Of a DNA stretch of 64,000 nucleotides, positions 12,573 through 32,581 are shown one piece after another (position 1 is the first letter of the stretch; the number at the start of each line of letters is the position of its first letter). This stretch comes from Solimonas terrae (GTDB lineage Bacteria > Pseudomonadota > Gammaproteobacteria > Nevskiales > Nevskiaceae). A program made the position numbers and the translations under genes. Below the pieces are notes generated by a model. The model was not told the DNA's origin, made no database searches, and worked only from the letters and a program-made list of their open reading frames with translations. Where the stretch lies: NCBI RefSeq assembly GCF_011067135.1, contig NZ_JAAMOW010000001.1, forward strand, positions 310,001-374,000, in the 5' to 3' direction.

Positions 12573-12609
12573 CGTTTTAATTTTTATCGGTAAAGAATCG
12601 CGGCGCCGC

Positions 12610-13965
12610 TCAGCCGGCTTCCGGCATCGCGTCCGGCTGCATGCCGGCCGCATTGCGACGCTGTTCCATGGCCTGCTGATAGAGGGCTTCCTCGCGCGAC
12701 TTGTGCTCGGCGCTGAAGCGCACGGCGATCGCACACAGCGAGGCAACCACGACGAAGCTGCCGAGGTAGGCGAAGGTCTGCTGCACGTCGCCGGTGCCCT
12801 TGAGCACGAAGCCGGCAGCGACCGCGCCGACATTGCCGCCGGCACCGATGATGCCGGCCACACCACCCAGCGACTTGCGATCGATGAAGGGCACCAGCGC
12901 GTAGGTCGATCCGCAGGCCATGTGCGTGCACAGGCCAAACGAGATCATCGCGATCACCGCCATCGTCACGGTCTGCGTGGTCGAGAACCACAGCAGGCCG
13001 ATGCCTTCGCCGAGCATCAGCACGAACAGCAGCAGGGTGCGCGCATCGAGCCCCCTTATGCGTGCGACACGATCGGAGACGATGCCGCCGACGGCACGCG
13101 CGAACAGCGCCAGCAGGCCGAAGCTGCCGGCCGCGAGTCCGGCCTGTTCGATGTCGAGGTGGAACTTGTCGACGTAGTAACTGGCTGCAACGCCGTGCAC
13201 GAACAGCTCGATGCCGAAGCAGCAGCCGTAGGTGACGAACAGCATCCACACGCGGTAGTTCGTCGACGCCGCCTTGAACACCGCCCAGCCGCCGTTCTTG
13301 CCGCTTTCGATTTCAACGCCCTTGGCGCGCAGATCCTTGTAATTGCCTTCCGGGCAGTCCTGCGTGTACTTCCAGTACAGCCAGGCGACGATCAGCATGG
13401 CGATGCCGGGCACCAGCATCGCGATGCGCCAGCCCAGCGCGTTGCCGACGCCGAAACCGAGGATCGCCGTCAGGATGATCGGCATCAGCGTCTGGGTGAC
13501 GCCGCCACCGGCATTGCCCCAGCCCGCGGTCGCGGCGTTGGCGGTACCGACGACATTCGGCGCGAACATCACCGAGGTGTGGTACTGCGTGATGACGAAG
13601 CTCGCACCGATCACGCCGATCGCCAGACGCAACACCAGAAACGCGGCGTAACCGTGAACCAGGCCAATGCCGATCACCGGCACGGCGCCGAAACCGAGCA
13701 GGCAGGTGTAGACGATGCGGGGGCCGTATTTGTCGCACAGCGGACCGATCAGGATGCGGCCGAAGATCGTGACGCTGACGGCGGCGATCACGATGTTGGC
13801 GAGCTGATCCTTGCTGAGACCGAACTCGCCCTTGATCACCGGCATCAGCGGTGCAACGGCGAACCAGGCGAAGAAACAGATGAAGAACGCGAGCCAGCTG
13901 AGGTGAAACGCGCGCATCTGCGGGGTGCGCAGACTGAACAGGTTGATGGCGGTAGCCTTCGACAT
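12610..13965 (-). CDS. NarK/NNP-family nitrate/nitrite transporter
   Basis: A 451-residue major facilitator protein of the nitrate-nitrite porter family with about twelve membrane segments. Both nitrate signature motifs are present (AGWGNAGGGVTQ in the N-half, GIIGAGGNVGAVAAG in the C-half). It brings nitrate into the cell for NasA and is the first gene of the operon. The ATG at 13965 has a good ribosome site (GGAG, 5 nt away). A longer open frame extends upstream but has no transporter features and would cross the promoter. Confidence 0.94.
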   Translation of the reverse strand: MSKATAINLFSLRTPQMRAFHLSWLAFFICFFAWFAVAPLMPVIKGEFGLSKDQLANIVIAAVSVTIFGRILIGPLCDKYGPRIVYTCLLGFGAVPVIGIGLVHGYAAFLVLRLAIGVIGASFVITQYHTSVMFAPNVVGTANAATAGWGNAGGGVTQTLMPIILTAILGFGVGNALGWRIAMLVPGIAMLIVAWLYWKYTQDCPEGNYKDLRAKGVEIESGKNGGWAVFKAASTNYRVWMLFVTYGCCFGIELFVHGVAASYYVDKFHLDIEQAGLAAGSFGLLALFARAVGGIVSDRVARIRGLDARTLLLFVLMLGEGIGLLWFSTTQTVTMAVIAMISFGLCTHMACGSTYALVPFIDRKSLGGVAGIIGAGGNVGAVAAGFVLKGTGDVQQTFAYLGSFVVVASLCAIAVRFSAEHKSREEALYQQAMEQRRNAAGMQPDAMPEAG

Positions 13966-14066: not shown

Positions 14067-14082
14067 TGCAAAGCGCATGCCA
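14067..14082 (-). promoter_or_regulatory. Sigma-54 (-24/-12) promoter of the nitrate assimilation operon
   Basis: On the minus strand the sequence is TGGCATG-CGCT-TTGCA, matching the consensus TGGCACG-N4-TTGCW at all but one position, with GG and GC at the correct 10-nt separation. Transcription would start near 14056 and leave a ~90 nt leader before narK. A 5'-proximal hairpin (GCCTG at 14051-14055 with CAGGC at 14022-14026, inner GATCG/CGATC) is predicted. This implies NtrC-type nitrogen control; no convincing NtrC site was found upstream. Confidence 0.75.
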
Positions 14083-14326: not shown

Positions 14327-15832
14327 TTACTTCACGACGATCTTGCCAGTCATCATCGGATGGATCGTGCACACGTACGGGTACTCGCCCGCCGCAGCGA
14401 AGGTCCGCGTCCAGGTCGCACCCAGACCCAGACGGCCGCTGTCGGCACCGTCCGCGAAGTGCACGATATGGGTCGAACCATCGTTGTTGACGAAGGTCAC
14501 CGTCGTGCCGACCGGCACGGTGAGCGTCGCCGGACCGAACGCGAAGTTCTGGATCGACACGGTCGTGCCGCCGCCTGTCGCAGCCGGCGCCGTTCCGGAA
14601 TCGGCAGGGGCCGGTGCCGCCGGCATCGCCATCGGTTCGGCGGCAGCCGGGGCCACCGGTGCCGGTGCAGCCTCGGGTGCCGGTGCGGCGTCGGTGGCCG
14701 GTGCAGGTGCCGCGGGTTCGGCTGCCGGCGCGGCCGGCGGGGCATCGTAGGTCTGCGCCGCACGTCCTTCCTGCTCCACCGTGACCGCGCCTGCCGCGGC
14801 TTCGGTGACCTTCAGCTCGACGCGACGGTTGAGCTCGCGGCCCTCGTCGGTCGCGTTGTCGGCAATCGGCATGCTTTCACCGAAGCCCTTCTCGGTCATC
14901 CGGTCGGCAGCGATGCCCTTGCTCTTCAGATAGGACATCACGGACGCGGCACGCCGGTCGGACAACTTGAGGTTGTAGGCGTCCGATCCCTTGCTGTCGG
15001 TATGGCCGTCGATCTCGACCTTGATGTCGGGACGCTTGTTCAGGGCGTCGACCACCTGGTCGAGCAGCGTCTTGGCGTTGACCGTCAGGTTCGACTTGTC
15101 GAATTCGAAGTTCACGCCACGCAACACCACGGTGTCGCCGGTCTTGCAGCCGCTGAAATCGACTGCGCCGTTTTCGCCGCTCATCGTGCACGGCGGCGGC
15201 GGCGGTGGAGGCGGCGGCGGCGGCGCGACCGGCGGCACGACCTTCACCGGCTCGGGAATTTCATGAACCACCGGCTCGCGATGCTGACCGAGCGGGATGC
15301 GGATGCCGAGGTTGAACACCGGCTCCTTGATGTCCCAATCCGACTTCGCCTGCAGCAGGGCTTCGGCGCGAATCGCGAAACCGTTGTCGCTCAGCGGCAG
15401 ATCCCAGCCGAGACCCGCGTGATAGTAGGACGAGGACGTCTTCATCACGTCCGCATGAATGAAGGGACCGCCGAAGACCGTCTCGGCCAGGAACATGTTG
15501 CCGCCGAAGCCGCCGCCCGACAGGGTGTCGCTGCCGTAATCGCAGCGCGACAGATTCAGAAGGCCGCAGGGATAGTTGCCCTTGCCCTTGTACTTGAGAT
15601 AAGTGCCGAGCGCTTCGAACTCGAGGCGGTTCGACAGCTTCCAGCCCGCTGCCAGCGTGCCGCCGAGGCCGTCCTTGGTGTGACGGTCGTCATCGGCGAG
15701 CGAATACGAGGCCATCGGCGCGATGTAGGTATCGTCTAGCCAGCTGTCGGCGTGGGCGACGCGACTGGTGAATGCCGAGGCCGCCACCAGCGGAATCAGC
15801 GCCAGACGAAAAACGCTTCCTGCACTCTTCAT
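14327..15832 (-). CDS. OmpA-family outer-membrane protein fused to a C-terminal cupredoxin domain
   Basis: 501 residues. Residues 1-28 are a signal peptide (cut after VAHA). Residues ~30-185 resemble an eight-strand OmpA-type barrel; ~190-215 is a linker with eleven consecutive prolines; ~235-345 is an OmpA peptidoglycan-binding domain (FEFDKSNLT, DGHTDSKGSDAYN, GKGES-like turn, NRRVEL). Then comes an Ala/Pro-rich spacer (~350-420) and a plastocyanin-like domain (~424-501). The copper ligands look intact: His in STHIVHF (~455), Cys 488, His 491 and Met 493/494 (CTIHPMM). Start ATG 15832 has an AAGGGG ribosome site. It would place a copper redox centre in the periplasm anchored to outer membrane and cell wall. 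Confidence 0.9.
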   Translation of the reverse strand: MKSAGSVFRLALIPLVAASAFTSRVAHADSWLDDTYIAPMASYSLADDDRHTKDGLGGTLAAGWKLSNRLEFEALGTYLKYKGKGNYPCGLLNLSRCDYGSDTLSGGGFGGNMFLAETVFGGPFIHADVMKTSSSYYHAGLGWDLPLSDNGFAIRAEALLQAKSDWDIKEPVFNLGIRIPLGQHREPVVHEIPEPVKVVPPVAPPPPPPPPPPPCTMSGENGAVDFSGCKTGDTVVLRGVNFEFDKSNLTVNAKTLLDQVVDALNKRPDIKVEIDGHTDSKGSDAYNLKLSDRRAASVMSYLKSKGIAADRMTEKGFGESMPIADNATDEGRELNRRVELKVTEAAAGAVTVEQEGRAAQTYDAPPAAPAAEPAAPAPATDAAPAPEAAPAPVAPAAAEPMAMPAAPAPADSGTAPAATGGGTTVSIQNFAFGPATLTVPVGTTVTFVNNDGSTHIVHFADGADSGRLGLGATWTRTFAAAGEYPYVCTIHPMMTGKIVVK

Positions 15833-15850
15833 GCAAATCCCCTTGTTGCC

Positions 15851-15864
15851 TTGATCAAGATCAG
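15851..15864. promoter_or_regulatory. FNR/CRP-family-like operator near the OmpA-cupredoxin start
   Basis: TTGATCAAGATCAG matches the FNR consensus TTGAT-N4-ATCAA at nine of ten defined positions. It lies 19-32 nt upstream of the ATG at 15832, so it falls in or near the leader, where a bound protein would more likely repress than activate. It shares the core TGATCAAGRTCA with the palindrome at 16031-16052. Confidence 0.45.
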
Positions 15865-15918
15865 CACGCATCGATCAGCCGGCACCGGCAGCCCCGGCGC
15901 GCGACCTGTCTTGCGCAC

Positions 15919-15957
15919 AAAAAAAAATCCACGCCCCTCCCATCGGAGTTGCGCGGA
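15919..15957 (-). terminator. Strong intrinsic terminator upstream of the OmpA-cupredoxin gene
   Basis: On the minus strand a stem TCCGCGC/GCGTGGA (one G-U pair) encloses a second stem CTCC/GGAG and is followed by nine T residues. It lies ~87 nt before the ATG of the gene it precedes, so it either ends an unseen minus-strand transcript from 15960-16450 or works as an attenuator. Its outer stem resembles that of the plus-strand terminator at 16559-16606. Confidence 0.7.
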
Positions 15958-16030
15958 CTTCGTTGTCCTGCCGGCTATCGTGCCGACAAACGCGATATTG
16001 CCACGAGTTGGTGAGCAAGGCGTGTGCCAT

Positions 16031-16052: not shown

Positions 16053-16455
16053 AGGATGAAGGCCCGTGTCTGTCCTCGAACAATTTCACGCCTTAATAAG
16101 GAGTACTTGAAGCGAGACGCCGATTCGTCGCGCTGCACCGCCAAGGTCGTTCATGCCTCCGGGCGTGCACGTTTTGCGCTCACCGTTCACGGCAATGGAA
16201 CATGCTGGCGCGCCAACATGGATCACCGCCACGCTCCTCGCGATATCGACAGGCCTGTCGATCGGCTGATTCCGACGCCGCACTCGCGCACATCATCACG
16301 CCGGCTTTTTCGCGCGTGCGTCGTGCGTCTGCGCATACCCGGCAAACCCTTGTGGGACCTGCGATCCGGCTGCGCATGCGCATGCATCTTGCGTGGCGAT
16401 GCCGAAGTGATCGACGAGCGCGACTCGAGCTTCACCTGTTGCAACGCCGCATAGT

Positions 16456-16471
16456 TGGCACAGGCTTTGCT
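16456..16471 (+). promoter_or_regulatory. Sigma-54 promoter of the globin/flavin operon
   Basis: TGGCACA-GGCT-TTGCT differs from the TGGCACG-N4-TTGCW consensus at one position and keeps the exact GG-GC spacing. The predicted start is 16482, which is also the first base of a 7-bp hairpin. This is the only promoter I can see before the gene at 16712. Confidence 0.75.
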
Positions 16472-16481
16472 CCAGTAATTT

Positions 16482-16606
16482 CGTGCACCAAGGATTAGTG
16501 CACGGACGCGTCAAGGGAGTCGGGCAAAGCCGCTCGAATCCAAAACCACGGACACCGACGTCCACGCAGCTGGCTGATTTCAGCCATTCGCGTGGACGTT
16601 TTTTTT
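16482..16606 (+). ncRNA. Candidate ~125-nt sigma-54 leader RNA or small RNA
   Basis: The predicted transcript starts at 16482 with a stem CGUGCAC/GUGCACG (16482-16504, nine-base loop). It has a second hairpin near 16518-16536 (GAG-U-CGG/CCGCUC, loop GCAAAG) and ends at a strong terminator at 16559-16606. It contains no convincing open reading frame. It may be a stand-alone small RNA or a regulated leader that must be read through to express the operon at 16712. No known riboswitch class was recognised. Confidence 0.4.
16559..16606 (+). terminator. Strong intrinsic terminator inside the operon leader
   Basis: A 9-bp perfect stem CGTCCACGC/GCGTGGACG encloses an inner stem TGGCTGA/TCAGCCA and is followed by eight T residues (16599-16606). 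It lies between the sigma-54 promoter and the first gene of the operon (ATG 16712). Full expression therefore needs read-through, antitermination or a second promoter in 16607-16700, where I see none. Confidence 0.8.
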
Positions 16607-16711
16607 GGGCCGATGTCCGGGGTGCGCCTCATCAGGACACGCACCGTGAGGTGCGGACTTCTCTTTCGGGGTTTTGTTGCATTCCATTCAGGTCAAAAGG
16701 AGTTGGGGCAG

Positions 16712-17758
16712 ATGAAACGGTTACATAAGAGCGGCTTGCGTACCCTGCAGTGCGCGGCGATTCTCGCAGCCGGACTGGTGAGCAGTAGCGCCTGGGCCGG
16801 TATCTACAACGACGGCAAGGTTCTGCTGACGGGCGGTGTGTTCACGGTTGACGGTGCGGGTGGCGGCGGCGCCGTGCCGTGGGCAACCATCAGCGGCTAC
16901 GAAACCCGTGACGGCATCAACGGCAGCGCCGGCTTTACCTATGTCAACCTTCCTGCCCTTCAGGTCTCGTTCTACGGCGTCAACGTCGGACTGTTCGATC
17001 GCGTCGAGCTGTCCTATGTCGACAGCCGCCTGTCGCTGAACCTGCCGAACCTGCAGACGGTCGCGCTGGTGGCCGATGCGGCCGGGCTCGATGTCGGTAC
17101 CGATGCGTGGAACTCCACGCTCGGCATGCAGACCTACGGCGTCAAGGTCCGTCTGTTCGGCGATGCGGTGTACACGTCCGACAGCTGGATTCCGCAGGTG
17201 GCAGTCGGCGGCCTCTACAAGGACAACCGCAATGTCGCGCTGATTCATACCCTGGGTGCGGACAAGACCAAGGACTATGAAATCTACGTGGCGGCGACCA
17301 AGGTCCTGTTCCCGATCAGCACCCTGGTCAACGTCACGGCTCGTTACACGAGCGCCAACGAAGACGGCCTGACCGGCTTCGGCTATTGCAACGGCGGATC
17401 GCAGACCGATTGCCACAACAAGCGCAAGGTTCGCGCCGAAGTGTCGATCGCGCATCTGGTGGCCAAGAACACGGCGATCGGCGGCGAGTGGCAGCAGCAC
17501 GGCAGCAATCTTGACGGTCGCAGCGTCAATGTCGCGGGCCTCGACCTCTCGGGTCTGACCGGTCTGCTCGGTTCCGCCGGGCTCGGCGGTCTGTCCGGCG
17601 CGCTGACGCAGAAGAAGGAAGGCGACTGGTACGACCTGTTCATGGCCTACGCCCCGAACAAGCACATCTCGTTCGTCGTGGCCTATCTGATGTTCGGCAA
17701 CATCGCGGTGGCCCCGGCCCAGAACGGCTTCTACTTCGCGACGCACCTGACGTTCTGA
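16712..17758 (+). CDS. DUF3034-family outer-membrane beta-barrel protein
   Basis: 348 residues with a Sec signal peptide (cut after SSSAWA, ~residue 29), many alternating hydrophobic strands and a C-terminal phenylalanine (FATHLTF), the usual outer-membrane insertion signal. The overall sequence fits the uncharacterised DUF3034 family. The start has an AAAAGGAG ribosome site 9-11 nt upstream. It is the first gene of the globin/flavin operon, with 30 nt before the next gene, and could act as a porin or a scaffold for the redox proteins that follow. The function is not known. Confidence 0.75.
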   Translation: MKRLHKSGLRTLQCAAILAAGLVSSSAWAGIYNDGKVLLTGGVFTVDGAGGGGAVPWATISGYETRDGINGSAGFTYVNLPALQVSFYGVNVGLFDRVELSYVDSRLSLNLPNLQTVALVADAAGLDVGTDAWNSTLGMQTYGVKVRLFGDAVYTSDSWIPQVAVGGLYKDNRNVALIHTLGADKTKDYEIYVAATKVLFPISTLVNVTARYTSANEDGLTGFGYCNGGSQTDCHNKRKVRAEVSIAHLVAKNTAIGGEWQQHGSNLDGRSVNVAGLDLSGLTGLLGSAGLGGLSGALTQKKEGDWYDLFMAYAPNKHISFVVAYLMFGNIAVAPAQNGFYFATHLTF

Positions 17759-17788
17759 TCCATCACTACAGGATCAAGGAGACTTTCA

Positions 17789-18262
17789 ATGAAACGCAGC
17801 AAGATTTCTCTCGCTCTGGCCACCGGCGTCACGCTGCTGGTTGCCGCCGCCGCGCAACCGGCGTTCGCTGGCGAATCGAAGACCAAGCCGATCATGGGCA
17901 TTCCGAGCAGCGCCGTCGCCGATTTCGGCGGCGCCTACGGTGTCCACAACTGGGTCGAGTCGCTGTTCTACTACATCATGCTCGACAACCGCATCAACTA
18001 CATTTTCAAGGAGTTCGGCAACGTCGATCGCCAGATCGCACTCAACACGCAGCTGGAGCAGATGGTCCTTGGTGGTCCCAACAACTACCAGGGCGCGAGC
18101 ATGAGCGCGGCGCATGCCGACCTCGGGATCACGATGACGCAGTTCAACGCGGTCGTCGAAGCGGCCTACAACGCCTGCGAACGCAACGAGATCAAGTACT
18201 ACGCCTGCAATGATCTGATCGCTGCGCTCGCCCCGTTCACCCGCGTGATCGTCACCAAGTAA
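17789..18262 (+). CDS. Exported group-1 truncated hemoglobin
   Basis: 157 residues. Residues 1-27 form a Sec signal peptide (AAAAQPAFAGES), unusual for truncated globins, which are normally cytoplasmic. The mature part keeps the family pattern: Phe-Tyr at B9-B10 (FYYIMLDNRINYIF), the GGPNNYQG E-F corner and the proximal histidine in SAAHADLGITMTQFNAVV. Three cysteines (NACER, YYACND) are near the C-terminus. Such globins bind O2 or NO; turnover needs an electron donor, and the flavin proteins downstream are candidates. The ribosome site AAGGAG is clear. Confidence 0.85.
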   Translation: MKRSKISLALATGVTLLVAAAAQPAFAGESKTKPIMGIPSSAVADFGGAYGVHNWVESLFYYIMLDNRINYIFKEFGNVDRQIALNTQLEQMVLGGPNNYQGASMSAAHADLGITMTQFNAVVEAAYNACERNEIKYYACNDLIAALAPFTRVIVTK

Positions 18263-18362
18263 GACGCTGTCTTTCCTCCGGAGTGCGCCTGTATCGGTGC
18301 TGGCCGATCGATACAGGCGCACAACGGTGCGGCAGCGGTTCCATTTCCTTGCAGGATTCGTC

Positions 18363-19007
18363 GTGACAATTAATAAAGCAGATTCCCGCAACGACGCAGG
18401 CAGCAATCGCGTCTCTCCTTCCAGCATTCATCTTGTCCCGGGCGATACGCTCGGCTCCCCCGAACGCCGTTCCCTGCTGCGTGGCCTGCTCGCACTGCCA
18501 CTGATCGCGGTCGTGGCCCGCAAGGCCAATGCGCAGGACGACGTCGAGCTGTCGAAAACCTTCCAGACACCCGAAGCCTTCATCACCGAAGCCTTCGCAC
18601 CGGCTGCCGCACCGCCGCCATCGATGTTGATGCTCGATGCCGGCAAGCAGTCGCAGATCAGTGCCGTACTCGGTCATCCGTACCCGCAGGCACGCCTGCG
18701 TTACTGGAAAGCGGCCGGCCGCAGCGCATGGATCTTCGATGACATCGGCAAGGAAGGCTACGTGCCGACCACTTGCGGATTCATCGTGTCCAACGCATCG
18801 ATCGAACATGCCCGCGTGCTGATCTATCGCGAGTCGCGCGGCGAACAGATCGGCGATCCGTCGTTCCTGCGCCAGCTGATCGGCGCCAGGGCCGCCGGCA
18901 GCGGGCTCGACAAGCATGTCGACAACATCTCCGGCGCGACGCTGTCGGTCAACATGATGCAGCGCATGGCGCGTGCCGCGCTGGTCTTCGATTCGCTGAC
19001 GGCGTGA
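18363..19007 (+). CDS. Exported FMN-binding protein with ApbE flavinylation motif
   Basis: 214 residues from GTG 18363 (AGGA ribosome site); an upstream in-frame codon at 18297 would add unsupported sequence. Residues ~33-58 (ERRSLLRGLLALPLIAV, cut near ANAQ) look like a twin-arginine signal. The C-terminal half fits the FMN_bind domain and ends with DNISGATLSV (Thr 193), the consensus where ApbE attaches FMN to threonine. apbE is four genes downstream. It is probably a folded, flavinylated periplasmic electron carrier. Confidence 0.82.
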   Translation: MTINKADSRNDAGSNRVSPSSIHLVPGDTLGSPERRSLLRGLLALPLIAVVARKANAQDDVELSKTFQTPEAFITEAFAPAAAPPPSMLMLDAGKQSQISAVLGHPYPQARLRYWKAAGRSAWIFDDIGKEGYVPTTCGFIVSNASIEHARVLIYRESRGEQIGDPSFLRQLIGARAAGSGLDKHVDNISGATLSVNMMQRMARAALVFDSLTA

Positions 19008-19054
19008 GCATCATGCCGCCCGCCTCTTCTGCCGTCCTGCGCGAGAGTGTGACG

Positions 19055-19903
19055 ATGCAACAGAGCAGCCGGCGTCGCTTCCTGCCACGACTGCGTCCCT
19101 TGCAGCGCGGCGCCACGGCCAAGCCCCCGAAGCCGAAACGCAACATCATCGCGGTGCTGCGCGAGTGGCACTCGCGCGCCGGCCTGGTGGCATTCGCCTT
19201 CCTGATCTGGCTGGCCAGCACCGGCATCCTGCTGACGCGCAGCAACGATCTGGGCCTGGACACCGCACGTGTCGACTGGCCGTGGCTGATGGACCTGTAT
19301 GGCCTGCATGCGGCGCCGCCACAATCCGGCTTCGCCGCCGGCGGCCACTGGCTGGCATCGACCAACGACTACACGCTGGTCGACGGCAAGCCGCTGGCGA
19401 CGCAGATCAGCGCGCCGCTCGGCATGGTCGCGGACGACAATCCGCAGATGCCGATGCTGTACATCGCCAGCCCGTCCAGCGTCGTGCTGATCACGCCGGA
19501 CGGACAGCGCATCGACAATCTGATGCCGCCGATCCTGCCGATCTCGACCGTGCGCCGCATCGGCACGCTGAAGACCGATCCGCACACGGTTGTCGTTCAG
19601 GATCTCGATGCCTACCAGAGCCATGACGAGGGCAATACCTGGTCGCCGGTGTCACCAACCGAGGTCGCATGGTCGCGACCCGAAGCCCTGCCGCCGGCAC
19701 AGAGCGACAAGGCGATGCCGTATTCGAAGCCGCGCGTGATCGTCGAGCAGGTGCTGATCGATCTGCACAGCGGTCGCCTGTTCGGACCGGTCGGAGCCTG
19801 GGCGATCACCATCGTCGGCGGCATCGCGATCGTCCTCGCGATCAGCGGCATCTGGATGTGGTGGCGCATCCGCCAGAACCGCAAGCGCATGACCTCACGT
19901 TGA
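19055..19903 (+). CDS. PepSY-type inner-membrane protein
   Basis: About 282 residues with one membrane segment near the N-terminus (GLVAFAFLIWLASTGILL), a periplasmic domain of ~190 residues and a second segment at the C-terminus (ITIVGGIAIVLAISGIWMWW) with a basic tail. This is the layout of PepSY_TM-type proteins that often accompany flavinylated FMN-binding proteins. ATG 19055 has GAGAG upstream; ATG 19013, nearer the previous stop, would add 14 residues. It may link the FMN protein to the membrane; no heme-ligand pairs are obvious. Confidence 0.75.
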   Translation: MQQSSRRRFLPRLRPLQRGATAKPPKPKRNIIAVLREWHSRAGLVAFAFLIWLASTGILLTRSNDLGLDTARVDWPWLMDLYGLHAAPPQSGFAAGGHWLASTNDYTLVDGKPLATQISAPLGMVADDNPQMPMLYIASPSSVVLITPDGQRIDNLMPPILPISTVRRIGTLKTDPHTVVVQDLDAYQSHDEGNTWSPVSPTEVAWSRPEALPPAQSDKAMPYSKPRVIVEQVLIDLHSGRLFGPVGAWAITIVGGIAIVLAISGIWMWWRIRQNRKRMTSR

Positions 19904-19978
19904 GCACGGACGGTCACACAGCGGAGATTTTTTTTGCAGTAGACATCATCAACGCAGTACGGAAATGGGAGATGGGAC

Positions 19979-20263
19979 ATGGATAAGTCACGGTTGTTCG
20001 CGGTATGCACGCTCGCCTTCTGTGGCGCCGCCTTTGCGCAGACGCCGCTGCCGGGTCACTCGATGGACGCGCCCGGATCGGGCACCGTCGGTGCGCCCGA
20101 AGCAACGGCGCCCGCCGACCAGATGTGGGTCGACAAGAACGGCGACGGCATCATCCAGCGCGATGAAGTCACCCCCGGATCGCAGCTGGCAAAGCGCTTC
20201 GATACACGCGACGCCAATCATGACGGCCAGCTGACATCGGACGAGTACTACCTGCCGAAATGA
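19979..20263 (+). CDS. Small exported EF-hand protein
   Basis: 94 residues with a Sec signal peptide (CTLAFCGAAFAQ) and two EF-hand loops, DKNGDGIIQRDE and DANHDGQLTSDE, that retain the calcium ligands. It lies inside the globin/flavin operon with a GGAGATGGGAC ribosome region. Calcium-dependent assembly of periplasmic partners is a possible role but there is no direct evidence. Confidence 0.82.
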   Translation: MDKSRLFAVCTLAFCGAAFAQTPLPGHSMDAPGSGTVGAPEATAPADQMWVDKNGDGIIQRDEVTPGSQLAKRFDTRDANHDGQLTSDEYYLPK

Positions 20264-20279
20264 GGCTGCAATGCCGGCA

Positions 20280-20304
20280 ACGGGAGTGGCCACGCCACTC
20301 CCGT
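20280..20304 (+). repeat. 11-bp hairpin between the EF-hand gene and apbE
   Basis: ACGGGAGTGGC and its exact complement are separated by CAC. There is no T-run, so it is not a standard terminator. It may stabilise the upstream mRNA or dampen apbE expression. It argues that apbE starts downstream at 20343 rather than at the ATG 20271 that precedes the hairpin. Confidence 0.55.
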
Positions 20305-20342
20305 CTCCGCGCCGGCCGCCATTGCCAGGAAAGCCGAACCCC

Positions 20343-21332
20343 ATGGGCTGGTTACGCAGACCGACACCGCTGCAGCGTCGTTTCATGGCGATGGGAACCT
20401 TCGTCACGGCGACGCTGATCGTCGAACCGCGAGGTCGTTTTTCCGCCGATCAGGTACTGAGCGAGATCGAGAGCGAACTGCTGGAGTTCGGTCGCGACGC
20501 CTGGGCCTGGGGCAATGGCCTGCTCGCGGACTTCAACCGGCGTCTCTCCGCCGGCATGCGCGTCGAAATTCCGGCCTCGCTGCGGCCGTTGTTCGAACAG
20601 GCCTGGGCCATTCATCGCGCCAGCGGGGGGCTGTTCGAACCGCGTATCGCTTCGCTGGTCCGACTCTGGGGCTTTGACGATGTCGCCCGCACGCGCAAGG
20701 AACCGCCGAGCACGATCGAGATCGACACCCTGTTCGCAGCCCTGCAGAGCGCCGCCGATTTCGACGGGGGCACGCACTACGGTCCGGCCCGCAATGTCGG
20801 CTGGGATTTCGGCGGCATCGCCAAAGGCTATATCGTCGACCACGTGCTCGACGGCCTGCGGCGACGCGGCTATCGCAATGTCAGCCTCGACGCCGGCGGC
20901 AATCTCGCCGTTCGCGGCCAGCGCAACGACCGCCCGTGGCGGATCGGCATCCGCGATCCGCGCAGCAGTCACACGCCGCGCCTGCTGGCTACACTGGACG
21001 CCACCGACGAAGCGATCATCACGCACGGCGATGACCAGCGCTATTTCGAATTCGGCAGCAAACGCTATTCACATCTGCTGGACCCGCGCAGCGGCTGGCC
21101 GGCGCAGGGCCTGCGCAGCCTCACCGTCGTGCATCGCAATGCCAGTGTCGCCGACGCCGCGGGCGGTGCCCTGTTTGTTGCCGGTGCGAGCGGCTGGCGT
21201 GCACTGGCGGCGAAGATGAAGATCGATCAGGTGCTGGTGCTGACCGATCGCGACGAGTTGGTGGCGACCGAAACCCTGGCCGCACGCCTGCGCGCCAGCG
21301 AAGACGGGCCGCGCCTGCGCGCGGTCGCCTGA
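20343..21332 (+). CDS. apbE: FAD:protein FMN transferase (ApbE), no visible signal peptide
   Basis: 329 residues from ATG 20343. ApbE cuts FAD and links FMN to a Ser/Thr in target proteins. Family motifs are RRFMAMGTFVTATL at the N-terminus, WDFGGIAKGYIVD, SLDAGGNLAVRG and RYSHLLDPRSGWPAQG. Unlike classical ApbE lipoproteins it has no Sec or lipobox signal from either possible start (20343 or 20271). A cytoplasmic enzyme would suit the Tat-type FMN protein of the same operon, which is exported folded. The gene ends 19 bp from the convergent gene at 21352. Confidence 0.92.
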   Translation: MGWLRRPTPLQRRFMAMGTFVTATLIVEPRGRFSADQVLSEIESELLEFGRDAWAWGNGLLADFNRRLSAGMRVEIPASLRPLFEQAWAIHRASGGLFEPRIASLVRLWGFDDVARTRKEPPSTIEIDTLFAALQSAADFDGGTHYGPARNVGWDFGGIAKGYIVDHVLDGLRRRGYRNVSLDAGGNLAVRGQRNDRPWRIGIRDPRSSHTPRLLATLDATDEAIITHGDDQRYFEFGSKRYSHLLDPRSGWPAQGLRSLTVVHRNASVADAAGGALFVAGASGWRALAAKMKIDQVLVLTDRDELVATETLAARLRASEDGPRLRAVA

Positions 21333-21351: not shown

Positions 21352-21654
21352 CTACTTCGGTTCCAGACGCACGCGACGATACGCGGCATTGGCTTCATCG
21401 TCGGCGACACGCGCTGCAAAACGCGCCGGGTCGATGGGCGCATCGGCGACATCGAACTGTCGTGGCGGCAGATCGATGTCGCTCGGGGCTTCTTCTTTCC
21501 ACGGCAGCAGATACAGCCCCACTGCCGCGTCACGCTGACCGATCAGGGTCGTGCCGGCATCGGCCGCTGCCGTCGGCGCCTTGCCGTCGGCCAAGGCGGC
21601 TTGCACGAAGCCGAAGCTCAGCATCAGCATCGTCGCTGCGTGCACGGCTTTCAT
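21352..21654 (-). CDS. Small exported protein of unknown function
   Basis: 100 residues with a signal peptide (MLMLSFGFVQAALADG) and a short acidic/proline mature region (LYLLPWKEEAPSDIDLPPRQF). The ATG overlaps the stop of the preceding TPR lipoprotein gene as ATGA, so the two are translationally coupled. I recognise no family. It is the last gene of the TPR operon. Confidence 0.65.
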   Translation of the reverse strand: MKAVHAATMLMLSFGFVQAALADGKAPTAAADAGTTLIGQRDAAVGLYLLPWKEEAPSDIDLPPRQFDVADAPIDPARFAARVADDEANAAYRRVRLEPK

Positions 21655-22304
21655 TGCGACGCTCCCGCCGGCGGTGTCCCGCCGGCCGCGATGGTCTGTC
21701 CCTGCAGTTCGTGGATCCAGACCGCGACCATCGGCTGCGCGTCGGCACCGGCGAGCTTTTCGTAGGCCTGGTACTGCACGAGTGCCAGATCGGGCCGATG
21801 CATGGCGGCATCGTAGAGAATCGCGAGATTGAAGTGGGCCGGCGCGTAGCCCGCCTGCGCTGCGATCGCGCGCCGGTAGAACTGCTCGGCGTGCGGATAG
21901 TCGCCGCGCTCGCGACTGAGCTGACCGAGCCAATTCAGTGCCACGGCGTTGTCCGGCCTGGCCTTGATGGCGGCGTTGAACGCGCTCACGGCGGCGGCGT
22001 TCTTCTTCGCCTTCGCGTACAGGATGCCGAGGTCGGTGGACGGGCCTGAGAACTGCGGGAAATCCTGGCTGAGCACGAGCAGGGCGATCTCCGCCTCGTC
22101 ATTGCGACCGTCGTGCATCAGCGCCAGCGCCGCGGCGAAGCGCGCCTGCGGATCGCCCTTGCCGGTATCGACGACGGCCTTGTGCACCGGCGTCTGACTT
22201 GCCATTCGTTGCGGGGCCGGCGGCGGCGGATTGCTCGCGCAGGCGCCGAGCGCAGCGTACACGACCAGGAGTGCGAGCCTATTGCAGCGATTCATAGTGA
22301 TCAT
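21651..22304 (-). CDS. TPR-repeat lipoprotein
   Basis: 217 residues. The N-terminus carries a lipoprotein signal with lipobox LGAC (LALLVVYAALGACASN). The rest consists of tetratricopeptide-like helices (for example NAVALNWLGQLSRERGDY, PHAEQFYRRAI, AHFNLAILYD). It overlaps the upstream TPR gene by 26 nt. An internal ATG at 22295 gives a more typical lipoprotein N-terminus and is an equally good start. It is likely an outer-membrane adaptor or scaffold for the large TPR proteins. Confidence 0.8.
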   Translation of the reverse strand: MITMNRCNRLALLVVYAALGACASNPPPPAPQRMASQTPVHKAVVDTGKGDPQARFAAALALMHDGRNDEAEIALLVLSQDFPQFSGPSTDLGILYAKAKKNAAAVSAFNAAIKARPDNAVALNWLGQLSRERGDYPHAEQFYRRAIAAQAGYAPAHFNLAILYDAAMHRPDLALVQYQAYEKLAGADAQPMVAVWIHELQGQTIAAGGTPPAGASQ

Positions 22305-25131
22305 CGTGAATCTCGTTCTTGCCGTAACGGGCCGGCGCGAGCTCGGTCAGCGAATTGGCGCTGCGTCGCGTCCAGTCGTTCCAGATGCCCTGATGCACGC
22401 GCGCCAGGTTGACCGCATAGGCCGCAATGGCCTTTTCCTCGAAGGGATCGGCCTGTTCTTCGAGCAGGATCTGGTACTGCTCCAGCGCATCGCCCTGCAG
22501 CTTGCCGGGCCGCTCGGAATCCAGCAGCGCGCGCCCGAAATCCTGGTAGACGCTGCCGATTTCGTAGGTCGCGGCCGTGGTGATCTCGGCGTCGTTGCTC
22601 TGCGCGGCACGCATCAGGCTGTCGAGCGCCGATTCGACCGCCTGCTTGCGCTTCGGCAGGCTGTGCGCAACCGGCGCCGACAGCGCCAGCAGTCGCGCCG
22701 CCTCGGCATCCTGCTGGCCGATCTCCAGGCTCGCCTGCGCCGCCATCTGCTGCGACAGCGCCGATCGCGCACTGCCGGCCTGTGCATCGGCCGCCACGAT
22801 CGCTTCGAGCCAGTGCCGCGAGGCGGCGGAATCGTGCAGGGTATCGCGCGTCAGATCGGCTAGCCGACGGCGTGCCTGCATGCCGCGATCAAGCGGCTGC
22901 GTGACGGCATCGTCGAGGCAGAATTCGTAGGCGCGTACCGCGGCGGCGGCCAATTGCGCACGATCGTATAGCTGTGCGGCCTGCCAGGCGGCGTCGCGGC
23001 GAATGTCCGGCGACTGATCGTCGCGCCGCGCGATGCGTGCGTAGACATCGGCGGCGTTGCCCGGCTTGCCGTCCTGTTCGTAGGCATAGGCGAGCTTCTT
23101 GTCGACATCGCCGGCCAGCGCGTCGGCCGGATGGCGCGAGCGGAAATCCTCGAGCGCACGTTCCGCCGCCGGCCAGTCTTTCAGGGCCATCAGCGCGGCC
23201 GTTGCGTCGTAGTCGGCCTTGCTGCGAATCGTCGCGTCCGGAACCAGCGCGCCGACGCGCTGGAAGGTCTGCGCCGCGCCGCGCAGATCGCCGGCATCAC
23301 GCGCCTTCTCGCCCTGACGATAGATCGACACGGCGAGATGCTCGCTGGCCTGGGTGCGCGCTGCCGGCTCCGGTGATTGCCGCAGCAAGGCGACGTATGC
23401 CGTCTCGGCACCGGCGTAGTCCTCCTGCGCGTAATGCGCGTCGGCGACCACGGTCAGCAATTCGAGGCGCTGACCGGGTGTGATGTCGTTGTCGTGATCG
23501 AGCGCATCCTGTGCCAGCGCCATCGCCTGCGCGTCCTGATGCAGTTCGTAGAGATCGCCGGCGGCGCGCGTCTGCACCGCCGTGCGCTGCGCGTGATGCG
23601 GAAACTGCGCGGCCAGTCGCTGGCTGGCAGCCACTGATTGCTGCAACGCCGCCGGGCGCGCCGGGGCCGCGACTTCCTGCGCAAGCCGCTGATAGGCCTG
23701 CACGGCGGCGTAGGCGGCTTCCGCTGCCTGCGGGCTCGGCCTGTCATAAGCGACGTGCAGATAGGCCTCGGCCGCGTCCGCGGTCCGTCCGCCGTCGTAC
23801 AGCGCATCGGCGTAGTGCATGGCAGTGACCGGCGACGGCGCGTCGGCGGGATCGAGCGCGAGCCGCTGCCGATACCAGTCGGCGGCGGCGAGGAAGCCGG
23901 CCGTGCGCGCCGGATCGCCAACCGCCGCCTGCTGCGCGCGCGACTGCTCGACGCGACCGAGCAGATCGAGATGATCGCGCAGATGCGCAACGACCGTCGC
24001 CGGCGGCGCGACGCTGCCCCAGTACGGCGTGCCGGGGCTGTAGCGCTGCACGTAGCGCCGCGTCGCCGCCATCGCCGGCTCGTCGAAGCCGCCGGCATCG
24101 AGCGCGGCGATTGCCGCCTGCTGGAAATCCGGATCGTGCGGGTCCTGCGGATGACGGTCGATGAAGGATTCGTAGACCTGCGCCGAATCGGTATAGCGAC
24201 GCTGTTCCAGCAGCGCCTCGCCCAGCGCGCGGTACAGCAGCGTCGAGAAGCGCGGCTCGCCCTGCGCTTCGAAATAGCGGTTCATCGCCGGCCCGCCGCC
24301 GAGCTCGGCGAACGACAGCCCGGTGACGCGCAACGCATCGCCCGCGAATTCCGCGGAACGGCGATTGACCGACGTCAGCGCCAGTTGCGGATCGTCGGCC
24401 GTGGCGCCGGGCGGCAAATCGGCATCGAGAATGGCAATGAACACCTTGGCGGCATCCGCGTATTGCGCCTGCAGGTACAGCGTCCAGCCCAGCTTGTACT
24501 GCGCCGGCGCGAAGTACGGACCGTCCTTGCCCTGGGCAAGCACTGCTTCGTACAGCGGCTCGGCCTCGGCGTAGCGGCTGCGCGCATACAGAAGCTCGGC
24601 GGCGCGGAAGCGTGCGTCGCCGACCAGCGTCGAATCCGGATAGCGCTGACCGAGTTCGCGCAGGCTGGCGATCGCGGCGTCGTTGTCGCCGAGCAGCTGC
24701 TGGGCGCGCGCCAGCTGGTAGACCGCCAGATCGTTGGCCGGATCATCCGCCTGCTCGCGCAGCAGGCGCTGATAGATCGCGACGGCTTCGCGCAGCGCCG
24801 CGGTATCGGGGCCACCGGCATCGGCGTCGCGATCGGCGAGCTTGATGCGCAGATACGCGGCGCGACGCATCGCTTCGGCGCGAATCTGCGGGTCGGCGGC
24901 GTCGAGCGCGATGACCTGATCGTAGTGACGGATCGCGCGCTGCAGATCCGGCGTCACCGGCGGCGATATTTCGACGCGCAGGATGTCCGGCGTCTTGACG
25001 ATCAGATAGCCGTTCTTCTGCATGCCGTTGTTGCGGGTCACCGAGCCAACGGTCGGCACATCATCGGCATGCGCCAACGGCAGCGCCATCGACAACGCGA
25101 GCAGCAAGGCGACGGCAAAACGGCGATTCAT
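22279..25131 (-). CDS. Large exported TPR-repeat protein (950 aa)
   Basis: A signal peptide (VALLLALSMALPLAHA) is followed by many TPR-like units over almost the whole length (for example VIALDAADPQIRAEAMRRAAYLR, RSRYAEAEPLYEAVLAQGKDG). Such proteins act as protein-interaction scaffolds in the periplasm. It overlaps the upstream gene by 4 nt (ATGA) and the downstream lipoprotein gene by 26 nt. No enzymatic domain was seen. Confidence 0.82.
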   Translation of the reverse strand: MNRRFAVALLLALSMALPLAHADDVPTVGSVTRNNGMQKNGYLIVKTPDILRVEISPPVTPDLQRAIRHYDQVIALDAADPQIRAEAMRRAAYLRIKLADRDADAGGPDTAALREAVAIYQRLLREQADDPANDLAVYQLARAQQLLGDNDAAIASLRELGQRYPDSTLVGDARFRAAELLYARSRYAEAEPLYEAVLAQGKDGPYFAPAQYKLGWTLYLQAQYADAAKVFIAILDADLPPGATADDPQLALTSVNRRSAEFAGDALRVTGLSFAELGGGPAMNRYFEAQGEPRFSTLLYRALGEALLEQRRYTDSAQVYESFIDRHPQDPHDPDFQQAAIAALDAGGFDEPAMAATRRYVQRYSPGTPYWGSVAPPATVVAHLRDHLDLLGRVEQSRAQQAAVGDPARTAGFLAAADWYRQRLALDPADAPSPVTAMHYADALYDGGRTADAAEAYLHVAYDRPSPQAAEAAYAAVQAYQRLAQEVAAPARPAALQQSVAASQRLAAQFPHHAQRTAVQTRAAGDLYELHQDAQAMALAQDALDHDNDITPGQRLELLTVVADAHYAQEDYAGAETAYVALLRQSPEPAARTQASEHLAVSIYRQGEKARDAGDLRGAAQTFQRVGALVPDATIRSKADYDATAALMALKDWPAAERALEDFRSRHPADALAGDVDKKLAYAYEQDGKPGNAADVYARIARRDDQSPDIRRDAAWQAAQLYDRAQLAAAAVRAYEFCLDDAVTQPLDRGMQARRRLADLTRDTLHDSAASRHWLEAIVAADAQAGSARSALSQQMAAQASLEIGQQDAEAARLLALSAPVAHSLPKRKQAVESALDSLMRAAQSNDAEITTAATYEIGSVYQDFGRALLDSERPGKLQGDALEQYQILLEEQADPFEEKAIAAYAVNLARVHQGIWNDWTRRSANSLTELAPARYGKNEIHDDHYESLQ

Positions 25132-26825
25132 GGCGCGGACACTCCATGCGGCACACGGTCGTCGATCCGGGCCAGCGCAAATTCGGCTTCGGCCAGATAG
25201 CGGCTGGCGTCGCGGTCGCGCGCCTGCAGGCTGGCGTCGAGTGCCTGACGCGCGTCGGCGGCGACGGTGCCACGCGCAAGCGCGATGCGCGCACGCAGGG
25301 CATCGATCGCCGTCAGCAGCGACTCATCGTGATCGGCCAGGTGCGCGCGATCGGCGGCCAGCGCACGATCGATTGCCTGCAGTTGCCGGTAGTCGTGCAG
25401 CGGTGCCGCGACCTGCGGATCTTCGATCAGCACGCGCAGCGGCACCGCCGCACTGTCGCCATGCCGCTCGACCAGCAGGCGCGGCCAGCCGCTGCCGGTA
25501 TCGGCGTCGCGGGCATCGAGTTCGGCCAGCATGCGTCCATCGTCGACTTCCTGGCGCGCGGCTGCCAGCGTCTGACGCGCGCCATGCAGGCGATCGACCG
25601 CGCGCTGGTAGTAGTCCTGCGCCTGCGCGTGGGCACCGAGATGATCGAGGGCATACGGAATCACCAGCATGCCCTCCTCGACCGCCGGATCGAGCGGGTC
25701 GCGGCCGATCAGTTCCGACCACGGCACCAGGGCGCGACGCAGATCGTCCGCGCGCTTGCCGTCGACGACCGCCTGCAGATAACGAAACGGCGTCTGCCGC
25801 CGCGTGACGGCCATTGCATCGGCCGACGCCGGGCGCAGCGAGACCGGGATCGGCGCAGCCTTGTCGGCCTGCGGCAGGAGACAGGACCAGCCGAGTCCGA
25901 GCATCGCCGCGCTCGAATACGGGCCGGGGCTGCGCACCTGTCTGAAACGGTCGGCGGCGAGATCGACCTGGCCGTCCTGCAGGGCGCGATAGCCCAGCGT
26001 CAGATTGCTCAGGTCGCGCACTGCCAGACCTTGCGCATCCGCAGCGCTGGCGTCGGCCAGTTGCTGCAGGGCGCTGTCCTGCGCTGCATCGACCTTGGCA
26101 ACCGCGGCGTTGTAGTGCGACAGCACCGGCGCTGTCTCGCCGCTCTCCGCCAGACCCAGGGCCGCGCGCGCGGCCTGCACCCGCACGGGATCGCTGCGAT
26201 TCGACGCCGAAAACAGCACCAGCGCTTCGAACGGCCGGCCGCCGGCCAGCAGCACCTCGGCTTCGTTCGGCAAGGGATCACTGCCGCCTGCCTGCAGGTC
26301 CATGGAGGCGCTGCTGACGAGACTGCCGGACTGCGCGGTGAGCACCAGCACGGCAGTCGCGGCGGCAGTGTTGAACGACCGATCGAGCTGTGCCGTCACC
26401 AGCGTCGCGTGCGGCTTGCCGGTATCGGCGCGCGCGCGAAACTCGGCGCGCAGGCGGTGAGCGCCCGCAGCCTCGGGCGGCAAGCTGCTCAGATACTTGA
26501 ATCCGCCGCCATTGAGCGCGTGCGCTTCGTCTTCGCTGAATTGATACGTGATCGGCGCGTCGTCGTCGATCTGCACGCTGATGTCGCGCAACACGGCGTC
26601 ATGCAGCGCCGAGCCCAGGACGAGCGTGGTGCCGCGGTCGGGGTTGGCCTGCCGCACCCGCAGCGACAGGTCCAGTGCCGAAGCGCTCAACTCGGCAAGC
26701 GAGGCGGTTTGCGCCCATGCCGATGACGTCAGCAGACATCCGGCCAGCAGCAGAACGCGCGTGGCGGCGTTCCGAACCGGCGTGCGCTGCCGCTCAGGGG
26801 CTGGAGCTGACGGCAATGCGTTCAT
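25128..26825 (-). CDS. Exported TPR-containing protein with N-terminal beta-rich region
   Basis: 565 residues from ATG 26825 (a TTG at 26846 would extend it by seven). A signal sequence (TRVLLLAGCLLTSSAWAQ) is preceded by a basic stretch. Residues ~45-160 look beta-rich (RGTTLVLGSALHDAVLRDI) and the remainder is helical with TPR-like repeats. It overlaps the small membrane protein gene upstream by 32 nt and couples to the 950-residue TPR gene downstream. The specific role is unknown. Confidence 0.75.
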   Translation of the reverse strand: MNALPSAPAPERQRTPVRNAATRVLLLAGCLLTSSAWAQTASLAELSASALDLSLRVRQANPDRGTTLVLGSALHDAVLRDISVQIDDDAPITYQFSEDEAHALNGGGFKYLSSLPPEAAGAHRLRAEFRARADTGKPHATLVTAQLDRSFNTAAATAVLVLTAQSGSLVSSASMDLQAGGSDPLPNEAEVLLAGGRPFEALVLFSASNRSDPVRVQAARAALGLAESGETAPVLSHYNAAVAKVDAAQDSALQQLADASAADAQGLAVRDLSNLTLGYRALQDGQVDLAADRFRQVRSPGPYSSAAMLGLGWSCLLPQADKAAPIPVSLRPASADAMAVTRRQTPFRYLQAVVDGKRADDLRRALVPWSELIGRDPLDPAVEEGMLVIPYALDHLGAHAQAQDYYQRAVDRLHGARQTLAAARQEVDDGRMLAELDARDADTGSGWPRLLVERHGDSAAVPLRVLIEDPQVAAPLHDYRQLQAIDRALAADRAHLADHDESLLTAIDALRARIALARGTVAADARQALDASLQARDRDASRYLAEAEFALARIDDRVPHGVSAP

Positions 26826-26970
26826 GGTCCCCGGTACGACGCGCAAGCGTGCGAACGCGCACGGCGTCGCTCAGCGTAGAAAGAAAAAAAAGGAGGATGA
26901 ATGCAGCGGCACAGATCGCGATGATCTGCATGGCCGGATCGACGAAGGCGAAAAGCACGGGATCAGACAT
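26794..26970 (-). CDS. Small single-span membrane protein
   Basis: 58 residues from ATG 26970, which has an AGGAG ribosome site 8 nt away. One strong membrane segment (AMQIIAICAAAFILLFFLST) is followed by a basic cytoplasmic-type tail. It is the first gene of the exported TPR operon and overlaps the next gene, so it may anchor or regulate that complex. No family is recognised. Confidence 0.65.
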   Translation of the reverse strand: MSDPVLFAFVDPAMQIIAICAAAFILLFFLSTLSDAVRVRTLARRTGDHERIAVSSSP

Positions 26971-27104
26971 GGCGACGACTCCTGGCAATTAGGCTGGGAC
27001 AGTCGCGGACGTCATTGGCCGCTTTGCAAACCGAATCTTCAGCGATCCGGCCGTTCGCGCTTCATCACGAACGACGATGAAAATTTCGCAAGCGCCGTGC
27101 CAGA

Positions 27105-29002: not shown

Positions 29003-29216
29003 CCGCCATTCCCCGCTGGTCGTGTCGATGTTCCGAGTACGGTCAGCGTCCAAACCGGAGACGCCGACTGCCTGCGCAGCGGACGTCGTTGCCCTGCGAT
29101 CATGCCGATGAGTCCGCGGGATCTGGGCCGGCCAACCGGCGCGGCAGCACTGCCGCAATCCCGCTGGATATGCACAGCCAGTTTCGTGCCACTTCGGGCG
29201 GGCACCCGGCAGCTAG

Positions 29217-32396: not shown

Positions 32397-32497
32397 TGCG
32401 GCATTGTGCTAGAACTTGGTAAATATCACCATATGTCGGCGCATTGCCTCATCGCACTTTTGACCGGAGTCACATCGTCAGGATTTAAATTAAATAC

Positions 32498-32510
32498 TTT
32501 CAATAAGTTA
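32498..32510 (+). promoter_or_regulatory. IHF-like site upstream of the psp promoter
   Basis: TTTCAATAAGTTA fits the IHF consensus WATCAA-N4-TTR with one mismatch, in an AT-rich stretch (32482-32510) just upstream of the -24 element. IHF bending at this position is typical of sigma-54 promoters served by PspF. Confidence 0.45.
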
Positions 32511-32526
32511 CATGGCATGGCCGGCT

Positions 32527-32542: not shown

Positions 32543-32581
32543 ATAACAGACCCACACACCAGCAACAACGGGGAAACCGCC

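Follow-up and report, generated by a model that had tools for sequence, protein, structure and literature searches.

In this study, a 64-kb stretch of the 4.42-Mb Solimonas terrae genome (hereafter, the window) was analysed, with a focus on an operon of six genes that encode a DUF3034 outer-membrane protein (OMP), a truncated globin, an FMN_bind flavin carrier, a PepSY membrane protein, a small EF-hand protein and an ApbE flavin transferase. The promoter, the leader and the conservation of the genes indicate that this operon very probably belongs to the nitrate-assimilation regulon. As judged from sequence, it is a conserved variant of flavin-based extracytosolic electron transfer with strong evidence for nitrate control. 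Its best explanation, which we hold with about even confidence, is an accessory operon of nitrate assimilation, in which an exported, flavin-reduced globin would handle nitric oxide (NO) or other reactive nitrogen.

The six open reading frames (ORFs) of the operon are as follows:

16712..17758, + strand: DUF3034 OMP, presumed beta-barrel (Pfam)
17789..18262, + strand: group-1 truncated globin with an N-terminal signal, proximal His109, B10 Phe60, E7 Gln82 and E11 Asn86 (Pfam, alignment, fold)
18363..19007, + strand: FMN_bind carrier with a Tat-like (twin-arginine translocation) signal, ERRSLLRG...ANA, and the flavinylation motif DNISGAT (Pfam, alignment)
19013..19903, + strand: two-helix PepSY_TM protein with conserved His53 and His252 (P0004 numbering) and a beta-rich middle domain (Pfam, alignment, model)
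19979..20263, + strand: small EF-hand protein with an N-terminal signal by eye (Pfam)
20271..21332, + strand: ApbE flavin transferase without a visible signal peptide (Pfam, alignment)

Six consecutive plus-strand genes had been proposed from the letters alone (the sequence-only reading), and re-reading of the ORFs confirmed all six on the + strand at these positions, with the Pfam domains then named. The Pfam E-values were 2e-69 (DUF3034), 7e-5 (Bac_globin), 2.8e-5 (FMN_bind), 4e-13 (PepSY_TM) and 1.6e-55 (ApbE), and the EF-hand match of the small protein was barely over the cut-off.

DUF3034 was present in 33/61 genomes (own genome counted), and the gene order OMP-globin-FMN_bind-PepSY recurred in most of the loci fetched first, some of which are cut by contig ends; ApbE was present in some of them. 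This core order spans Nevskiales, in which the nearest named relatives belong to Solimonas, and Zhongshania/Spongiibacter; three loci from another family (L003-L005) carry the OMP only, with or without a distant globin. Scanning of named genomes with the globin alignment yielded 37 related loci from Solimonas, Sinimarinibacterium, Hydrocarboniphaga, Panacagrimonas, Nevskia, Polycyclovorans, Stenotrophobium, Oceanococcus, Spongiibacter, Zhongshania and several metagenome-assembled genomes; the S. marina globin (L053) is 90% identical to that of the window. Profile searches found the OMP in all 37 loci, the globin in 36, FMN_bind in 34, PepSY in 34 and an OmpA-cupredoxin fusion in 28, which together with the recurring order supports the earlier proposal of a conserved extracytoplasmic redox gene set. 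The part of the proposed gene order from OMP to PepSY was borne out, whereas ApbE occurs in 21/37 loci and the EF-hand gene in 7/37. The six genes also do not stand alone: the core is conserved, but the neighbourhood is larger and includes the OmpA-cupredoxin protein, tetratricopeptide-repeat (TPR) proteins and, elsewhere, ExbB, ExbD and TonB. The OMP-globin pair is duplicated inside L036 (genome G005) and L019 (G004), and the L036 copies flank the TPR operon. In Hydrocarboniphaga effusa, the cluster is placed twice on a single contig (L062 and L063), and the two agree in locus coordinates and in the identities found by comparison; this is either a large recent duplication or an assembly artefact.

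The regulatory elements of the operon and the further promoters of the window are as follows:

16456..16470, + strand: sigma-54 (-24/-12) promoter of the OMP operon (strict site; same place in 33/34 loci)
16520..16537, + strand: ANTAR hairpin P1, stem UCGGGC/GCUCGA, hexaloop AAAGCC with A1 and G4 (folding, motif, covariation)
16550..16563, + strand: ANTAR hairpin P2, GGAC-ACCGAC-GUCC, hexaloop with A1 and G4, 3' strand within the 5' arm of the terminator (motif)
16558..16606, + strand: intrinsic terminator, 10-bp outer stem followed by a T-run, mutually exclusive with P2 (folding, covariation)
16015..16029, - strand: sigma-54 site of the divergent OmpA-cupredoxin gene (strict site)
15917..16008, - strand: second antiterminator/terminator leader, of the OmpA-cupredoxin gene, P1 loop ACGATA without G4 (second-best genome match of the leader model R1)
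14068..14082, - strand: sigma-54 site before the NarK-type gene (strict site)
27088..27102, - strand: sigma-54 site before the TPR operon (strict site)

Sigma-54 control of the operon, also suggested by the sequence-only reading, rests on a full site TTGGCAC-N5-TTGCT at 16455-16471. The strict pattern (TGGCAY-N5-TTGC) occurs four times in the window against 0.44 expected, and each site precedes one transcription unit (narK, OmpA-cupredoxin, the OMP operon and the TPR operon). A site precedes the OMP gene in 33 of the 34 testable loci, window included, against about 0.02 expected per locus; testable loci have at least 300 nt upstream, and L061 and L088 were left out because their OMP runs off the start of the contig (the L061 site is spurious). 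The sole miss (L079) has a site at 8378 once the full OMP ORF is taken. The window and 36 loci together hold 94 strict sites: 80 are found ahead of locus genes (OMP 33, OmpA-cupredoxin 20, TPR 10, NarK 8, NasT 5, FMN 2, NasS 1 and NirB 1) and the other 14 were not assigned; in this tally, L069 and L070 overlap and a few sites are counted twice. An RpoN DNA-binding domain is encoded by two genes of the host genome, which therefore holds both the sites and the sigma factor.

Downstream of the promoter, the leader (16470-16720) folds better than shuffled sequence (z -2.9). RNA targets of ANTAR proteins, K. oxytoca nasF included, have two hexaloop hairpins with A1 and G4, the second overlapped by a terminator (PMC3369931, in the part of it used here), and the leader at 16520-16606 shows strictly this arrangement, which occurs once in the whole window. 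Among 32 leaders (L061, L063, L070, L088 and the loci lacking a called site, L079 and L085, being left out), 15 carry the strict dual AnnGnn hexaloop with terminator, and none was found in 20 rounds of mononucleotide-shuffled leaders. For alignment, 21 of the 23 leaders matching a P2-plus-T-run pattern were used; the other two, L055 and L059, are near-duplicates. Of the 21, 20 have a fitting P1 loop and 18 a fitting P2 loop; the P1 search favoured G4 and the leaders were picked by P2 stem and A1, so that G4 of P2 is the only unselected count. For both P1/P2 and the terminator, covariation scored higher than in any of 500 shuffles or any slid control, and the number of cells paired, which counts sequences and not events, likewise exceeds all 500 shuffles for both.

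A covariance model built from the aligned leaders (R1) matched 25 of the same 32 leaders, of which 21 were its training set; more independent results are the scores of 60.8 and 63.0 bits for L062 and L065, whose T-run the selection pattern had missed. In the whole genome, R1 scored highest on the window leader (80.8 bits), followed by that of the OmpA-cupredoxin gene (35.3 bits, outside the training set). The third match was rejected as the reverse strand of the first terminator, and the next (C2:48559, 20 bits) lies in a short locus in which no nitrate gene was recognised, ORFs running off its ends excluded. In L056, L058 and L059, a NasT-like gene splits the globin from FMN_bind, and a separate sigma-54 site and R1 match (52-58 bits) belong to the FMN unit. 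In Polycyclovorans (L085, near 3702), a NirB-like gene after PepSY also has its own sigma-54 site and an R1 match of 43.8 bits. The leader is not a catalogued Rfam match, because none of the six matches in the Rfam search of window positions 12-34 kb reached the gathering score.

Genes of nitrate assimilation lie on both flanks of the operon:

12610..13965, - strand: MFS transporter, NarK by context, ATG at 13965 (profile and context)
10020..12938, - strand: NirB nitrite reductase large subunit, ORF limits with the true start inside (profile)
8434..10023, - strand: Rieske (NirD-like) and pyridine-nucleotide reductase fusion (Pfam)
5658..8375, - strand: NasA-type molybdopterin oxidoreductase (profile)
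27105..28328, - strand: NasS-type nitrate sensor, NMT1_2, named by context with NasT (profile)
28325..29158, - strand: NasT, response receiver and ANTAR (profile)

One flank thus holds the NarK-type gene, nirB, the Rieske-reductase fusion, nasA and, by eye, molybdenum-cofactor genes, and nasS-nasT lie on the other. At least one of NasT, NasS, NarK and NirB is close by in 22/37 loci, and in 17 of the 27 full-flank loci, those of at least 18 kb. In the 61-genome sample, a system-type globin (globin score above 200 bits) was found in 29 genomes, and NirB was over the cut-off in 29/29 of these against 7/32 of the others (Fisher 3.9e-11); the seven include G033, whose DUF3034 gene lies at a contig end with no globin seen. 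Within the family, the figures were 26/26 with and 5/11 without the globin (p 2e-4). The genome and locus sets compared in this study are phylogenetically related, and the p-values overstate their independence. The nitrate link suspected from the neighbouring genes is strengthened by this co-occurrence and by the NasT/ANTAR-type leader. An IS481-type transposase gene (29572-30510) adjoins nasT. A sigma-54 activator gene, PspF-like by eye (- strand), diverges from a PspA gene (+ strand) at 31344-33581, with a one-mismatch sigma-54 site at 32526; this is probably a phage-shock locus outside the system.

The flavinylation site predicted earlier was found: the window FMN_bind protein carries DNISGAT, and GAT is present in 34/34 aligned FMN proteins, so covalent FMN on the substrate Thr is predicted. 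No solved relative of FMN_bind was found by phmmer at E<=1. A hydrophobic N-terminal segment was seen in 0/22 ApbE ORFs (one partial), and the FMN protein carries a Tat-like signal in 23/23 loci with a local ApbE (the window and L076, whose ApbE is partial, included) against 2/12 without (2/11 without L064, which ends before ApbE could show). Of these 23 calls, 17 follow the strict RR pattern and six were made by eye (four RR and two KR); the strict-only contrast is 17/23 against 2/12 (p 0.003). A signal-less ApbE and a Tat-like FMN protein where ApbE is local suggest that cytoplasmic flavinylation precedes export of the FMN protein; cytosolic ApbE enzymes are known from Klebsiella (PMC12052999, in part). 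The host genome has four ApbE genes, and another ApbE could therefore serve. PepSY_TM, ApbE and a flavinylation substrate are clustered in the window, as in a flavinylated PepSY system. PepSY His53 and His252 are invariant in 22 aligned sequences, and the PepSY protein was modelled (pLDDT 88) with a beta-rich domain and two long helices, not with the three transmembrane helices of the PepSY-like protein described in the part of PMC8238504 drawn on here; a two-heme core would therefore need a dimer. Foldseek returned nothing at E<=0.001 for PepSY, FoxB was absent from the best 50 matches listed, and the middle domain gave weak beta-propeller-like matches only.

The globin has the fold and the proximal F8 His of group-1 truncated hemoglobins. 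Its best solved structure by profile is a Tetrahymena chain (Y25F mutant, E 4e-14), by alignment with which positions B10 and E7 were assigned, and its top Foldseek matches are M. tuberculosis HbN. F8 His, B10 Phe, E7 Gln, E11 Asn and two Cys are aligned in 37/37 globins, window included; the pocket positions rest on alignment because the first globin model was mediocre (pLDDT 68). The Phe-B10/Gln-E7 pair resembles that of elephant myoglobin. A hydrophobic N-terminal segment is present in 36/37 globins, from which we infer that the globin is exported. A paralogue in the same genome (C11:677610, 24% identical) was not taken as part of the system.

The sigma-54 promoter and the NasT/ANTAR-type leader attenuator together imply that full transcription would need both nitrogen limitation, on the sigma-54 side, and nitrate or nitrite. 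NasS would release NasT on nitrate or nitrite, and NasT would favour P1/P2 over the terminator. FMN would be attached to its carrier in the cytoplasm by the signal-less ApbE, and the flavoprotein would then be exported, already folded, through Tat. Electrons would cross the inner membrane to FMN by way of the two-helix PepSY protein, which is probably a heme-b homodimer, and FMN would keep the exported globin ferrous near the outer-membrane barrel and a peptidoglycan-anchored cupredoxin. The globin would most likely oxidise NO to nitrate with O2, or otherwise clear nitrite-derived reactive nitrogen from nitrate assimilation, and the whole would be a three-part, extracytoplasmic equivalent of flavohemoglobin. 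The regulation and anatomy of the system are well supported; from the cofactors, their location and the analogy with Bradyrhizobium Bjgb-Flp and Chlamydomonas THB1-nitrate reductase (below), we infer its chemistry, namely electron flow from PepSY heme through FMN to the globin and removal of NO. The fully specified version is put forward tentatively: an extracytoplasmic multi-protein NO dioxygenase with cytoplasmic flavinylation, Tat export, a heme-b PepSY dimer and a Phe-B10 globin, whose nitrate would be re-imported by NarK, under sigma-54/NasT control shared with the outer-membrane-anchored cupredoxin.

Several results weigh against this reading. Tyr B10 is important in canonical truncated-globin NO dioxygenases, and here the position is Phe in 37/37 globins, which is the main result against a standard NO dioxygenase; 13 globins of wider relatives have an aliphatic B10, with Leu or Phe at E7. 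On the regulatory side, two of the five P1/P2 structure measures were reached by shuffles: pairs changed on both sides by 125/500 (0/500 for the terminator) and further pair types by 34/500 (32/500 for the terminator). P2 showed no covariation of its own among the 21 aligned leaders; it hardly varies and belonged to the selection pattern, so that the P1/P2 signal stems from P1. Neither the antiterminator (by motif and R1) nor a local ApbE was found in the seven Zhongshania/Spongiibacter loci, and no clearly enriched dyad that could mark NtrC sites appeared in the 350 nt upstream of 31 sigma-54 sites. In Bradyrhizobium, narK-bjgb-flp rose and did not fall in a nasT deletion under denitrifying conditions (PMC6759348 and PMC6965051, in part), and NasT control of globins is therefore not simple there. 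Finally, a wider group of relatives has the globin and OMP without these flavin genes, beside a sensor-GGDEF-EAL protein, and the ancestral role of globin and OMP may therefore be sensory.

The envelope genes around the operon bear on a different explanation:

14327..15871, - strand: OmpA domain with C-terminal cupredoxin fusion, divergent gene (Pfam, alignment)
21352..21654, - strand: small protein c10, N-terminal signal by eye (locus clusters)
21651..22304, - strand: TPR protein c7 (Pfam, locus clusters)
22279..25131, - strand: TPR protein c8 (locus clusters)
25128..26846, - strand: c12, conserved TPR-operon member without a Pfam match (locus clusters)

The OmpA-cupredoxin gene bears the same promoter-leader pairing as the OMP operon, and its copper-ligand residues His, Cys, His and Met are invariant in the sequences reaching those columns (28 aligned). 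These genes could form an energised machine of the envelope or for uptake across the outer membrane, with a nitrogen source as its substrate (DUF3034, OmpA, TPR, ExbB/ExbD/TonB); the proteins with heme, flavin and copper would sense this substrate or condition it. The small protein c10 recurs in the related loci. Such a machine would fit the presence of c8 in 23/37 loci and in 22/27 with full flanks, the sigma-54 site of the TPR operon itself and the presence of ExbB, two ExbD and a TonB-like protein in 12-13 of the 27 full-flank loci (TonB-like 12/27); in several other genomes, ExbB-ExbD-ExbD-TonB lead straight into the OMP operon. We consider it unlikely, as the conserved flavinylation motif and heme relay are left unexplained and the related ExbD genes of the host genome are unlinked, about 320 kb away. 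The latter lie at C11:653718-654724 with an adjoining ExbB-like ORF and are related to cluster-linked ones elsewhere. A small membrane-protein gene, by eye, runs from 26970 downwards (- strand) right after the sigma-54 site, ahead of the TPR operon.

Reduction of iron or copper for assimilation, which has been proposed for many PepSY-ApbE clusters, is less probable still; here it would feed the enzymes with siroheme, Fe-S and molybdenum that nitrate assimilation uses. PepSY-type flavinylated clusters have been tied to iron reduction (PMC8238504, in part). The conserved cupredoxin ligands would also suit this role, but the signals of control that came to light are those of NasT and sigma-54 (no search was made for Fur sites or siderophore receptors). 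To our knowledge, a globin is no usual metal reductase.

At a slightly lower probability again stands a gas or redox sensor, in which NO or O2 bound by the globin and cupredoxin would trigger a signal, with the flavin proteins merely resetting the heme. The distal pocket without Tyr would allow it, and the wider Gammaproteobacteria offer a precedent. In a class-wide sample, DUF3034 was found in 18/369 genomes (own counted). Of the 17 loci of other genomes that were retrieved at length, 10 encode a globin with an export-like N-terminus. Two further proteins keep recurring, one cupredoxin-like and the other a sensor, in clusters of 13 and 15 across 20 loci. When a single representative per cluster was compared with Pfam, the sensor proved to be dCache-HAMP-GGDEF-EAL, and the cupredoxin-like protein matched Cupredoxin_1 under the cut-off. 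L107-L118, L033, L034 and L124 combine the cupredoxin-like protein, sensor-GGDEF-EAL, the DUF3034 OMP and a globin, which in some cases has a lipobox as judged by eye, and they lack these flavin genes; in L119-L122, DUF3034 has another setting, beside reductase-like proteins and what looks by eye like a sigma-54 activator, and no globin was matched. Against a sensor, no GGDEF-EAL protein was among the conserved clusters read in the Nevskiales loci (no profile search for it was made). As wider relatives have globin and OMP without these flavin genes, the Nevskiales/Spongiibacteraceae form appears to have added both the flavin genes and nitrate control. That the genes are chance neighbours without a common function is very improbable, given system-type globins in 29/61 genomes, shared promoters and leaders and the same order in nearly all loci examined, Zhongshania/Spongiibacter included; a chance gene order is ruled out by its recurrence across loci.

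The nitrate-assimilation reading can be set beside known systems, for which the following statements hold within the parts of the cited papers used. PepSY-type ApbE-flavinylated extracytosolic systems have been described (PMC8238504), and like them, the operon clusters ApbE, a flavinylation substrate and a PepSY_TM membrane protein. The substrate here is FMN_bind and there mostly DUF2271; the signal-peptide globin, DUF3034 OMP and OmpA-cupredoxin are added here, ApbE is signal-less, the substrate Tat-like and control of NasT type with sigma-54. The words 'globin' and 'DUF3034' have 0 occurrences in the main texts of PMC8238504 and PMC10979944. In Bradyrhizobium, the nitrate-assimilation operon narK-bjgb-flp-nasC with predicted NasT hairpins (PMC6759348, PMC6965051) likewise combines a globin with a flavoprotein reductase; that pair is described as cytoplasmic, a single-domain hemoglobin with an FAD-NAD(P)H oxidoreductase, whereas in the present operon both the globin and the FMN carrier seem to be exported, and covalent FMN is the predicted flavin. 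Chlamydomonas THB1 is a truncated globin under nitrogen-source control that is reduced by a flavin partner and acts as NO dioxygenase (PMC4620153). The present globin would share this control and partnership, whereas THB1 is cytosolic and eukaryotic, with nitrate reductase itself as partner. Truncated hemoglobin domains outside the cytoplasm have also been proposed in cable bacteria, as hemoglobin-cytochrome fusions acting in the periplasm (PMC11976967); there, they are fused to multiheme cytochromes, and no flavin carrier or nitrate control is mentioned in the part of that paper used. In flavohemoglobin, globin and flavin reductase share one chain, whereas here they are separate proteins. No description of this gene set was found in searches of the open-access literature; some loci may be among the PepSY clusters of PMC8238504.

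The analysis links a class of flavin electron-transfer clusters whose purpose is unclear to nitrate as a defined signal, with a recognisable RNA switch as the connection, and their function thereby becomes testable under known conditions. It puts forward a possible function for DUF3034 and for an exported truncated globin, and predicts a flavinylation route through cytosolic ApbE followed by Tat export; the 2025 ApbE review describes cytosolic ApbE, with 0 occurrences of 'Tat' or 'twin-arginine' in its main text, and does not name this route. A globin with a flavin reductase in nitrate regulons is known in an alga and a rhizobium, and the operon of S. terrae and its relatives would, if this reading is true, be the cell-envelope version.

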